Virus record (IMG/VR): IMGVR_UViG_3300017756_000072
Location: 1 to 28,874 of that record
Source: a virus
Direction: 5' to 3' (one strand)
DNA length: 28,874 nucleotides
The position numbers were made by a program, and so were the translations under genes. The notes beneath the pieces were generated by a model. The model did no database searches and was not told the DNA's origin. It saw nothing but the letters and a program-made list of their open reading frames with translations. Position 1 is the stretch's first letter; each line of letters starts with the position of its first letter. This document shows positions 4,641-15,746 of this stretch, in pieces.

Positions 4641-5339
4641 ATGCCATTACCTGATATAATCACTCCAACCTATGAGTTGGTTGTACCTTCGTCTAAGAAG
4701 AAACTAAAATATCGTCCCTTCCTTGTTAAAGAACAGAAGATTCTGATCCTAGCATTGGAAGAGAACGACAGTGCTCAGATACTAGAAGCAATCAAAGATA
4801 TATTCAAAAGCTGTATCACCAGTAGATTTAAGATGGACGACCTTGCCATCTTTGATGTTGAATATATTTTCCTACAACTACGTGGTAGATCTATCCAAGA
4901 AACTATTGAGGTAGAGGTGCCATGTGATGACGACAAAGAAACTAAAGTCCCCGTGACTTTCCCCGTCGATGCAGTCAAGGTTAAGTTCCCAGAGGGACAT
5001 GCCAAGGAGATTAAACTCAATGATGACATCGTAGTCGTCATGAAGTATCCTAACCTAGACTACTTCACTAAGGTCAATTTTACTGAAGAGGAAGTGGATC
5101 CCTACGAACTGGTATCCTCATGCATCGACAGAGTATTTAATAAAGGAGAAGATTGTGGATCATTTACACCTAAAGAAGCTCAGTCGTGGCTTGAGAAGCT
5201 TACTAACGATCAGTTTGAAAGTGTCCAAAACTTCTTTGACACTATGCCTACTCTTCGCCATGATATTACAGTTACAAATCCTAACACAGGGGTTAAAACT
5301 AGTGCAAGTATCGAAGGACTGATTAATTTTTTCGGGTAG
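4641..5339 (+). CDS. 26: Baseplate hub subunit gp26 (T4 baseplate protein family)
   Basis: The 232-residue protein matches the T4 gp26 family (T4 gp26 is 208 aa): it opens with a beta-rich PLPDIITPTYELVVPSSKKK, then YRPFLVKEQKILILALEEND and a helix IKDIFKSCI. The strand pair VEVPC/KVPVTFPVDAVKV is followed by LRHDITVTNPNTG at the C terminus. It works in hub assembly with gp51, gp27 and gp29. The zero-frame product ends EGLINFFG-stop. Just before that stop, FF is encoded by the slippery run TTTTTTC, and the -1 frame from there stays open for 64 more codons. So this gene probably makes two products: the 232-aa protein and a 295-aa fusion (4641-5333 joined to 5333-5527). Confidence 0.85.
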   Translation: MPLPDIITPTYELVVPSSKKKLKYRPFLVKEQKILILALEENDSAQILEAIKDIFKSCITSRFKMDDLAIFDVEYIFLQLRGRSIQETIEVEVPCDDDKETKVPVTFPVDAVKVKFPEGHAKEIKLNDDIVVVMKYPNLDYFTKVNFTEEEVDPYELVSSCIDRVFNKGEDCGSFTPKEAQSWLEKLTNDQFESVQNFFDTMPTLRHDITVTNPNTGVKTSASIEGLINFFG

Positions 5340-5359
5340 CCCTATTCCAAGAGGGGTTA
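5314..5359 (+). other. Predicted -1 programmed ribosomal frameshift signal
   Basis: Three elements line up. An internal Shine-Dalgarno-like AAGGA (5314-5318) lies eight bases upstream of the heptamer T-TTT-TTC (5327-5333) in the zero frame of gene 26, which fits the X-XXY-YYZ rule. A predicted stem follows three bases later (5337-5343 with 5353-5359, 7 bp including two G-U pairs, 9-base loop). The zero-frame stop lies inside the stem at 5337-5339. After slippage the next codon begins at 5333. This layout resembles the known bacterial dnaX frameshift cassette, with internal Shine-Dalgarno, slippery site and stem. Folding energy was not calculated. Confidence 0.75.
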
Positions 5360-5527
5360 GCAAGATTCTATCAAACGAATTTCGCCTTGGTGCAACACCA
5401 TAAATATACTCTGAGTGACATAGAAAATATGATCCCTTGGGAGCGTGACATTTACGTCAATATGCTTGCTAAGTGGTTAAAGGATGAGAGAGATCGTATA
5501 GAAAAGGAACGTCAAAAACGTAAGTAA
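5333..5527 (+). CDS. 51: gp51-like tail hub assembly segment, translated as -1 frameshift extension of gp26
   Basis: The 64 codons carry a convincing protein segment: FQEGLARFYQTNFALVQHH, then KYTLSDIENMIPWERDIYV, then a charged helix rich in Lys, Glu and Arg. The pattern (short helix, 'tL.dIe.m.pwErd.y' motif, charged helix) is typical of small gp51-like or tail-assembly-chaperone ORFs beside gp26 in T4-like phages. There is no ATG before the middle of the motif, and the frame is closed upstream by a stop at 5324-5326, so it cannot start independently in a normal way. The TTG at 5387 or GTG at 5390 would lose the first helix and have no ribosome binding site nearby. The stop TAA overlaps the next ATG by one base (TAATG). 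T4 gp51 is larger and separate. Confidence 0.78.
   Translation, partial: RVALFQEGLARFYQTNFALVQHHKYTLSDIENMIPWERDIYVNMLAKWLKDERDRIEKERQKRK
5399..5406 (+). promoter_or_regulatory. Possible late promoter core CATAAATA inside the gp51-like segment
   Basis: This eight-base core is identical to the two divergent late promoters and lies 120 bases upstream of the tape-measure-like gene. It also encodes His-Lys-Tyr of the gp51-like motif, so it may be coincidental. Confidence 0.3.
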
Positions 5528-7560
5528 TGAACACTCGTCTATCTAAAATCTTTGGGGTTAAGATCTTACCTGTTGCGGGTAAGGTAACTTCTACAGCCAA
5601 GGAGATGTTAGATACTGAGATGGAGTACATCGAGTATCTCAGGAATAGAAGGAAGTTCTTCTTTATGACTCAGGTACAACAGACCAGAGTTACAGTAAGA
5701 GGTAAGTCACAGAAGGAAGAGGAGAAGAAAAAGAAGAAACGTAGAGGTGGTGGTGTATTAGACACCTTAAACAAGGCAAGGAAGATAAAGAGGGCACTTG
5801 GTAATAAGAAATTAAATAAGAAGACTAAACTTGGTAGGTTTAGGCGTAACCTGAGAGCTGGTGGTCTTAAACTAAACAGGAAGGTGCAGCGTTCTCCATT
5901 TGGTAGAGCAAAGAAATTTGTCGGTGGAATAGGTAAAAAGATTGGCGGTAAGGTCAAGGGTGTAAAGAAAGCAGCTCTTGATAAGGTAGTAACAGCACCT
6001 GCAGCATTAAAGAAGAATATAAGTAACCTGATACCTAAGTCTGCTAAGAAGAAGGTAGCCCAGAAATTAGTAAAGACAGCAACGAAGAAGGGACTACAGA
6101 AGGCGGGTGCTAAGGTAGGAGCGAAACTTGCTGCCAAGACAGCAGTCAAGATAGGATTGAAGAAGATACCAGTTATAGGTCTCATAGCTGGACTAGGGTT
6201 TGGAGCACAAAGATTACTGGCAGGGGATGTCCAAGGTGCCCTTATGGAAGCGGGATCAGGTATAGCATCTACAATACCAGGTCCAGGTACTGCTATATCA
6301 GCAGGAATAGATGCTGCTCTGATCGCTAAAGATGTCACGGGTATGAAAGACGGGGGTGAAGTTAGTTCACCTACACAAGCACTGATCGCTGAGGGTGGTG
6401 AACCTGAACTCGTTGTACCACACTCTAAGTTAGGTCCTGTTTTCCGAAGTCTATTAAGTAATGTTGGTAACATACTAACAGATGTCACTACAGGGTTCTT
6501 GTCTACATTACCTGTACCAACATCAGAATCCTCAAGGATATTGGGTGAGACAGCAAAGATAGCAGCAGTGTTTGGACAGAAAGGCAAACCTATATCAGTG
6601 TTCAAGGGTGGTAAGATAGCAAAACTGGCAGGAGGATTCCTGAAGAAGATGGCTGGTGGTGCCATGGGTCTTGCTAAGGGAGCATTCGGGATGACACCCA
6701 TAGGCATGGCAATGGGTATGCTTAGTAGACCAGCTAGGGCAGATGGTAAAAAATTAAAATTTAGAAAAAGAACAGTAAAGAATACGATATCTGATGTCAA
6801 TGGTGTGATGACTTCATCATCATGGGATTCAGACACTGCTACGTCAATAGCAAACTTCCCAATTACTGATAAGTATGGATCAACAGAAGGAAGACAAAGA
6901 CCTCATGGTGGTGTGGACATAGGAACTCCCGTAGGCACACCCGTAGGATTTACTGAGCCAGGTGAGATATTAGCAGCTGGTGAGTATGGTGGATATGGAA
7001 ACATGATGGATGTCTGGTTACCAGCTGCCAAAATACAGATGCGTATAGCACACTTAAGTAAGTTTGTTAAGAAAACTGGTGAGTTTATGGCAGGAGAGAA
7101 ACTTGCTGAAACTGGTGGAGCAGTCGGTGATCCTGGCTCAGGTAGTTCTACAGGACCACACCTTCACTTTGAGGCAGATAACAAGAAAGACTCAACTAGA
7201 TATGGTGGGGCAGGAGACCCATTGCCTTATGCACCACTGATCAACTTGAGTGCAGTCGAACCACCATCAGGAGGTGCGACAGGTAAAGGCGGTGCATCCT
7301 ATGGGTTCCCACTAACTAACACAGTCAAGTGGCCAACCAGTGGTGGTTCTATGGGAGGTCCTGGTCTTCTATCTGGCATAGGTAACATGGTGGGATCTAT
7401 CCTTGGTGGTAGGACAAAGATTGAATATGTTCCTTTCCCTGTACCTGTGGTAAAACCTTTCCCAGTTCCCGTCACTAAAATTGTGACAGTAACGGAGAAG
7501 GATGTGAAAGCATACGGTATAGATCCTTTCTCTGGTAAATATGGTGTACTAAATGGATAA
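5527..7560 (+). CDS. Tape-measure-like tail/hub protein with M23 peptidase domain
   Basis: The protein is 677 residues long. The first ~180 residues are very Lys/Arg-rich. A Gly/Ala-rich hydrophobic stretch follows (about 215-275). Around 276-300 is GGEVSSPTQALIAEGGEPEL then VVPHS, a motif common near the ends of tape measure proteins. Residues ~445-560 form an M23 (LytM-like) metallopeptidase domain with H460-x3-D464, H509 and the H545-L-H547 pair, all expected zinc or catalytic residues. A C-terminal Pro/Val repeat (about 635-650) ends it. It directly follows the gp26/gp51 unit, where lambda-like phages keep the tape measure. It probably sets tail length and may cut host peptidoglycan during DNA injection; equivalence to T4 gp29 is inferred. 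Confidence 0.72.
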   Translation: MNTRLSKIFGVKILPVAGKVTSTAKEMLDTEMEYIEYLRNRRKFFFMTQVQQTRVTVRGKSQKEEEKKKKKRRGGGVLDTLNKARKIKRALGNKKLNKKTKLGRFRRNLRAGGLKLNRKVQRSPFGRAKKFVGGIGKKIGGKVKGVKKAALDKVVTAPAALKKNISNLIPKSAKKKVAQKLVKTATKKGLQKAGAKVGAKLAAKTAVKIGLKKIPVIGLIAGLGFGAQRLLAGDVQGALMEAGSGIASTIPGPGTAISAGIDAALIAKDVTGMKDGGEVSSPTQALIAEGGEPELVVPHSKLGPVFRSLLSNVGNILTDVTTGFLSTLPVPTSESSRILGETAKIAAVFGQKGKPISVFKGGKIAKLAGGFLKKMAGGAMGLAKGAFGMTPIGMAMGMLSRPARADGKKLKFRKRTVKNTISDVNGVMTSSSWDSDTATSIANFPITDKYGSTEGRQRPHGGVDIGTPVGTPVGFTEPGEILAAGEYGGYGNMMDVWLPAAKIQMRIAHLSKFVKKTGEFMAGEKLAETGGAVGDPGSGSSTGPHLHFEADNKKDSTRYGGAGDPLPYAPLINLSAVEPPSGGATGKGGASYGFPLTNTVKWPTSGGSMGGPGLLSGIGNMVGSILGGRTKIEYVPFPVPVVKPFPVPVTKIVTVTEKDVKAYGIDPFSGKYGVLNG

Positions 7561-14294: not shown

Positions 14295-14729
14295 ATGTCA
14301 CATTCGGCAACGTATCACAAGATCAAAGACATCTTACGTAGTGCCCCTAAACCAGTGACAGACGAAGTGCTATTAAATGTAGCAGCACTCGCTATTGCTG
14401 AGACTTTAGGTGAAAGGGTGGAAGAACTAGACACTGAAATTAAGTGGGATAGTGACATCCAGAACGACCTCATGCTCGACTCACTTGACATGGTTGAGTT
14501 AGTCATGTTCCTCGAAGAATGCTTCAGTGTAGAGATTCGAGACGAACAGGCAGGAGAGATTGCCACGGTTGGTGATGCTATTACTATCATCAAGGAGAAC
14601 AAGGCAGGAAAACCACGTAAGGTGGACAAACGTAAGGTCAGCAAGTCATTCGCTCAACAAACAGAAGCGAGAGCATCCAAGCAAGAACAACTTGATGCTG
14701 ACCTCGACAAAGCGTTAGATGAAGACTAA
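14295..14729 (+). CDS. Acyl carrier protein (phosphopantetheine-carrier domain)
   Basis: Residues about 23-100 of 144 match the acyl carrier protein fold closely: a helix with ALAIAETLGERVEELD, then DIQNDLMLDSLDMVELVMFL with the phosphopantetheine attachment serine S63 in the DSLD motif, then EECFSVEIRDEQAGEIATVG and the closing helix DAITIIKENK. In cells this serine receives 4'-phosphopantetheine and then carries acyl or aminoacyl groups as thioesters. The domain is flanked by about 22 extra N-terminal residues and a 43-residue charged C-terminal tail that free bacterial ACPs (about 80 aa) lack. No synthase or holo-ACP synthase is seen nearby, so it presumably uses host enzymes. The downstream gene overlaps it by 11 bases. 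Confidence 0.88.
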   Translation: MSHSATYHKIKDILRSAPKPVTDEVLLNVAALAIAETLGERVEELDTEIKWDSDIQNDLMLDSLDMVELVMFLEECFSVEIRDEQAGEIATVGDAITIIKENKAGKPRKVDKRKVSKSFAQQTEARASKQEQLDADLDKALDED

Positions 14730-15459
14730 AAAAATATTTTACAACTATGTGATGGGTGGAAGTGAAGAGAGTTTCCTTGATGAAGGGGAACTCGATTTCT
14801 TTCCAGAGGATTATTTTGAGGAACCAACTCCTGCTCTCAAAGAATACGACCCTGACTATAGACACTCCAAGTGCCCTGCTTTCAAAGAATATTATAAGAA
14901 TACATGGGTCATGAAGCAATGCTTCCCACTTGGTATCATATATAAATCTACTGAGAAACTTTTAGAAACTAATCTTGGACAAGATGTGTTCGATGAGTAT
15001 TTCATGTTAGGTGATGGTTGGTTGGACGGTACACACCCAGAGGTACAGTTCAAACAAGGTTACTGTTTTTGGACAGAGGACAGTGACGTATGGATTGAAC
15101 AGTTTCAACACCCCGATATGACAAGGAAGGGTCTAGACGTAGTGTCTGGTACATTTCCTATATCTGTTTGGCAACGACCTATCAACTTAGGATTCACGGT
15201 AAAGAACTATGACTCAAACATCTGGATCGAAAAAGGATCCCCGCTTTGCTATGTTAGATTCTCTAGCCAAAGAACAAGAGATGTCAAATTCACTCTTGAA
15301 AAGCGATCCATCCCTAAAGAAGTGCTTAAGCGACAACTACAAAGCTTGTGGCTCAAAGACTGGCACAAAAACTTCTCATGGAACCTCATCAAACAAAGAT
15401 TGAGGAAGGAAGAGGAGACAGAGAACAAATGCCCTTTTGATTTTTTATGGAAGAGATAA
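14719..15459 (+). CDS. Conserved hypothetical protein (246 aa)
   Basis: I do not recognise a firm family. The product is aromatic and rich in Trp, Phe and Tyr. After an acidic N terminus come a CPAFKEYYKNTWVMKQCFPL block at about 52-71, QPINLGF-like strands in SVWQRPINLGFTV and SNIWIEKGSPLCYVRF at about 189-204. A charged helical C terminus (KRQLQSLWLKDWHKNFSW) follows. The pattern of a 'CPA..kNTf' motif followed by beta strands and 'i.kG.Pl...f' is one I associate with uncharacterised cyanophage proteins. It is translationally coupled to the acyl carrier protein (11-base overlap) and to the next small gene (13-base overlap). Confidence 0.62.
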   Translation: MKTKKIFYNYVMGGSEESFLDEGELDFFPEDYFEEPTPALKEYDPDYRHSKCPAFKEYYKNTWVMKQCFPLGIIYKSTEKLLETNLGQDVFDEYFMLGDGWLDGTHPEVQFKQGYCFWTEDSDVWIEQFQHPDMTRKGLDVVSGTFPISVWQRPINLGFTVKNYDSNIWIEKGSPLCYVRFSSQRTRDVKFTLEKRSIPKEVLKRQLQSLWLKDWHKNFSWNLIKQRLRKEEETENKCPFDFLWKR

Positions 15460-15746
15460 CACAACTACACAAAGAGTTTCGTACACTTGACGGAGTGGGT
15501 GTATGTAAAGTATACTTTATAAATGGCATACCCTTTTCATTTGATGAAGAGGAAGTTCCTAACAACCTTGCTGACGTAGTGAAAGCAGAAGAGAAACCTC
15601 ATTTTACCAACGAGGATCTATATAGAGGTAGCAGTTACCTCATAGAAGAAGGATTTGAACTTGATGTACTCCTTGAGGAAATCAATGACGATCTATTCAA
15701 TGATGGTGATGACTCACCATATCACAAAATACCAAAACGATACTAG
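15447..15746 (+). CDS. Small acidic hypothetical protein (99 aa)
   Basis: The 99-residue protein is strongly acidic, with VGVCKVYFINGIPFSFDEEE near the start and a Asp/Glu-rich end (LLEEINDDLFNDGDD). It starts 13 bases inside the preceding gene. No domain is recognised. The compact overlap and clean codon use support it as a real gene in the accessory operon. Confidence 0.55.
   Translation: MEEITQLHKEFRTLDGVGVCKVYFINGIPFSFDEEEVPNNLADVVKAEEKPHFTNEDLYRGSSYLIEEGFELDVLLEEINDDLFNDGDDSPYHKIPKRY

Follow-up and report, generated by a model that had tools for sequence, protein, structure and literature searches.

A conserved -1 frameshift in the tail genes of dsDNA phages is exemplified by lambda gpG/gpGT (Xu, Hendrix & Duda 2004, as reviewed in PMC5009743). 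In lambda the short form attaches to the tape measure, and the domain present only in the long form brings in the tube protein (PMC5009743); that 2016 review still lists T4 as the exception. T4-like tail assembly chaperones were identified by Vladimirov et al. 2022 (Virology 566:9-15), as cited in PMC10885494 and PMC12846349. The former cites that study for short and long genes that are separate in some T4-like phages, and the latter for T4-like chaperone genes that carry poly-T slippery signals. A further described case is the Vandenendeviridae/Andersonviridae chaperone locus, represented by Pseudomonas phage Adele (PMC12846349).

The locus considered here is the end of gene 26 in the window, a 28,874-nucleotide stretch of marine cyanophage DNA most closely related, among isolates, to Prochlorococcus phages P-HM2, P-HM1 and MED4-213. 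It shares with the T4-like chaperones of Vladimirov et al. 2022, as the citing papers describe them, a gp26-type short form, a gp51-type long form and a poly-T signal ending the short gene. T4 itself encodes the two forms in separate genes, 26 and 51, whereas here there is one gene plus a -1 frame. Lambda gpG/gpGT uses a slippery sequence other than T TTT TTC and a protein family other than PF12322. The Adele locus resembles this one in its poly-T motif, its unannotated -1 extension and the comparative argument made for it, but its motif is GTTTTT and it belongs to other phage families (PMC12846349). The mechanism is not new in kind, being well known in tailed phages and reported for T4 relatives. 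An initial reading of the window from sequence only had suggested that it might be new, which was too strong, because T4-like chaperones and poly-T frameshift signals had already been published (Vladimirov et al. 2022, as cited above). The literature search, in which that study was represented by the papers citing it, found no paper describing the cyanophage case. What remains is a correction, made with confidence, to cyanophage genome annotations, in which the frameshift is unmarked.

Layout of the gene 26 end

The zero frame at 5325-5339 reads AAT TTT TTC GGG TAG, with the heptamer in the X XXY YYZ register (Table 1). A TAA at 5324-5326 closes the -1 frame, which is then open at 5327-5524 and stopped by TAA at 5525-5527; it contributes 64 residues beyond gp26 residue 231, for a fusion of 295 aa in total. 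Its earliest start-like codons are TTG 5387, GTG 5390 and ATG 5429, the last being its first ATG and lying within the ..ENM-IPWER.. motif, and no Shine-Dalgarno sequence was found in the window before any of the three. The sequence-only reading had placed the heptamer, the -1 frame limits and the end of gene 26 correctly, and its observation that no ATG precedes the middle of the motif holds. The junction peptide that it named needs correction: the proper tryptic form, cleaved at the junction Arg, is TSASIEGLINFFR, in contrast to the unshifted gp26 C-terminus, TSASIEGLINFFG. A sequencing error is unlikely, since the same sequence occurs in three independent IMG/VR contigs (L004-L006).

Table 1. 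Features at and around the end of gene 26 (positions in the window).
Feature	Positions	Strand	Basis or comment
Gene 26 zero frame: putative short tail assembly chaperone (TAC-N)	4641..5339	+	232 aa; PF12322, phrog_150, T4 gp26 match
Slippery heptamer T TTT TTC	5327..5333	+	in phase; 80/80 relatives
Zero-frame stop TAG, end of short product	5337..5339	+	sequence
-1 frame: C-terminal (gp51 / TAC-C) domain and stop TAA	5327..5527	+	phrog matches, selection, helical model
AAGGA, proposed upstream stimulator; unsupported	5314..5318	+	from conserved Glu-Gly, codons unconstrained
Predicted downstream stem-loop; unsupported as conserved	5337..5359	+	z -1.3, without compensatory change in 27 relatives
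Next gene, tape-measure-like, M23 peptidase domain	5527..7560	+	PF01551; ATG overlaps -1-frame stop (TAATG)

Gene 26 and the -1 frame that follows it would very probably constitute a single gene that encodes two forms of a tail assembly chaperone. Most ribosomes would halt at TAG 5337 to give the 232-aa short form, while a minority would slip one base back on T TTT TTC, with the Phe tRNAs re-pairing with TTT TTT, and would read on to TAA 5525 to give the 295-aa long form. The extra helical domain of the long form would be what other genomes annotate as gp51. On the lambda G/GT model, the short form may coat the tape measure protein, and the extra domain may recruit tail tube subunits. The putative chaperone identity of the gp26/gp51 product draws on homology and the literature, and we infer both slippage and its efficiency, together with the chaperone role, at gene 26.

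Conservation of the slip site and of the -1 frame

The comparative evidence for programmed -1 frameshifting at this gene end is very strong. Among 80 relatives with a complete gene end (mostly from IMG/VR), every one carries the in-phase heptamer 10 nt ahead of the stop, as TTTTTTC (57) or TTTTTTA (23). Elsewhere in gp26 the T TTT TTN form is found in only 2 of 94 Phe-Phe or Phe-Leu(TTA) codon pairs (95%-non-redundant set); against these figures, its occurrence at 80/80 gene ends is more than chance. Within the window's own clade both Phe codons are fixed (30/30 each), as against 0/119 other conserved degenerate columns, and among relatives outside that clade the Phe codon is likewise fixed (23/23), with 1/76 of the other columns fixed. 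The codons neighbouring the heptamer vary; the Phe codons do not. The heptamer recurs in P-HM2, S-ShM2, S-RSM4, S-N03 and S-CRM01, and the same gene-end site is present in Sinorhizobium phiM12 (as a T7 run), Stenotrophomonas Moby, Variovorax V45v66, Vibrio D479, Va3/ValKK3 and Bakedbeans, and Aeromonas 65 and phiWae14. The core of the earlier proposal, a -1 shift that fuses gp26 to a gp51 domain by lambda G/GT logic, is strongly supported: the heptamer, its phase, the fusion architecture and the -1-frame protein are all conserved.

A homopolymer run, which nearly all relatives have at this position, might instead act on RNA polymerase, which would add an extra U to some transcripts in place of slippage by the ribosome. 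Typical bacterial transcript-slippage runs are longer than six T, however, and the run here has just six (seven in phiM12). Moreover, none of the 80 loci has TTT as the second codon, only TTC or TTA; this makes the run shorter yet preserves the X XXY YYZ heptamer, whose phase does not change from locus to locus. Polymerase slippage is accordingly a highly improbable source of the long form, and ribosomal frameshifting is preferred.

The -1 frame is itself under selection. Over the 55 codons past the gp26 stop, it contains no stop in any locus of the non-redundant set (53/53), as against about six stops in each of the other frames. The -1 frame gives a pooled pN/pS of 0.15-0.17 within the window's clade and of 0.29 when all loci are taken together, with similar values ahead of the motif ATG, compared with 1.0-2.4 for the other frames. 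The extension thus combines conservation and purifying selection with the lack of any consistent start codon, as expected of the G/GT type.

These results bear directly on the possibility that gp51 is a separate short gene, as GenBank annotates it in relatives, with a start of its own at TTG 5387, GTG 5390 or ATG 5429. The relatives do carry separately annotated gp51 CDSs, and in some, such as S-ShM2 and ValKK3, an ATG lies on or close to the gp26 stop. Nevertheless, the annotated lengths range from 30 to 62 aa in cyanophages (30, 60 and 44 aa in the first three annotated records inspected), the candidate starts in the window have no Shine-Dalgarno sequence, and a separate gene leaves the fixed heptamer unexplained. 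Residues are conserved from the heptamer onward (FFRIALF) and remain under purifying selection upstream of a first ATG that wanders among loci (+5, +20, +23, +50, +53 or +92), a pattern consistent with read-in from gp26 rather than with independent initiation. An exception is Vibrio phage D495, which has no T6 run and in which the gp26 stop overlaps a -1-frame ATG as TAATG (L095:2640-2700); this overlap, which also counts in favour of separate initiation, suggests that frameshifting may there have been replaced by reinitiation. For the window, independent initiation has very little probability. Where the cyanophage records examined annotate a small gp51 gene of its own, with starts that differ among records, the more likely reading is the C-terminal portion of a gp26 fusion. 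Correction of these entries would provide cyanophages with the standard tail assembly chaperone pair.

The frameshift of dnaX is stimulated by an upstream Shine-Dalgarno sequence and a downstream stem, and neither is conserved at the gene 26 site, although the sequence-only reading had proposed both. The 7-bp stem (5337-5343/5353-5359) is predicted in the window but is weak, with 22/200 shuffles equally good. Some members of the clade have it as GCCCTC/GAGGGC, inside codons for conserved Ala-Leu-Phe-x-Glu-Gly; no covariation was found in the 27 relatives, and the stem is missing from most relatives outside the clade. The AAGGA, 8 nt upstream of the heptamer, encodes the conserved Glu-Gly, for which codon usage is unconstrained, and S-RSM4 and several other relatives lack it. 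What selection preserves, as judged from these alignments, is the slip site rather than a structure.

The window has another in-phase T TTT TTA, at 15441-15447, which lies 16 nt ahead of the stop codon of gene 14719-15459. Gene 15447-15746 lies in the -1 frame relative to that gene but begins at its own ATG. This heptamer is unsupported as another shift site: it is invariant in 22 relatives of the window's clade, yet almost nothing varies across that entire gene end, and the heptamer's conservation is therefore not diagnostic.

Protein families and the link to T4

The gp26 product belongs to PF12322 (E 3e-61) and covers columns 5-232 of the 282 in phrog_150, the -1-frame peptide matching columns 231-282 (E 1e-9). 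The same peptide matches phrog_634 ('baseplate hub assembly catalyst') at E 2e-26; a Pfam and NCBIfam search with the -1 domain gave no real match, and a PDB sequence search with both alignments gave nothing meaningful. Searches with gp26 and with the -1 domain returned the same cyanophage record counts: Synechococcus 377, Cyanophage 61 and Prochlorococcus 24. A confident model of gp26 (pLDDT 85) matches viral baseplate hub proteins and has no significant match among solved structures; those of highest probability, all at E > 2, were the HK97 tail assembly chaperone 2ob9 (prob 0.33, E 2.3) and the uncharacterised 3fgx (prob 0.54). The -1 domain is modelled, at lower confidence than gp26, as two long helices.

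A profile built from virtual fusions of 16 phages matches gp26 of T4 (E 1.8e-26) and JD18 over the unshifted part, and also the single-frame gp51 of T4, JD18 and Aes012, the Aes012 alignment crossing the junction unbroken. The short form is thus a member of the T4 gp26/gp51 family (PF12322, phrog_150), and the long form is colinear with gp51. These matches indicate that in T4-type phages the short and long forms each have a gene, and that in the phages studied here one gene encodes both. No second PF12322 copy was found in the window record, a 28.9-kb genome fragment. Frameshifting is reportedly retained in several T4-like groups, T4 being said to use genes 26 and 51.

Frameshift, duplication and possible reinitiation among the relatives form a natural series, in which two protein forms are kept while their encoding changes. 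It is conceivable, but rather doubtful, that the -1 frameshift is the ancestral, near-universal route to the long chaperone in cyanophages (Kyanoviridae, Eurybiavirus) and several proteobacterial T4-like lineages, that gene duplication in the T4-even phages and start-codon takeover in some Vibrio phages are derived replacements, and that tape measure translation is frameshift-coupled.

The gene downstream

Gene 5527-7560 encodes 677 aa, with its M23 domain (PF01551, E 9e-13) at residues 459-555, to which its tape measure family matches are confined. It is likely a tape measure gene, and its product contains a GGEPELVVP stretch, which resembles a motif common in tape measure proteins. Its ATG overlaps the -1-frame stop at 5525-5529. 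Such a stop/start overlap between the -1 frame and the next gene is found in most loci (33 of 52 in the non-redundant set), so translation of the tape measure may be coupled to the frameshift.
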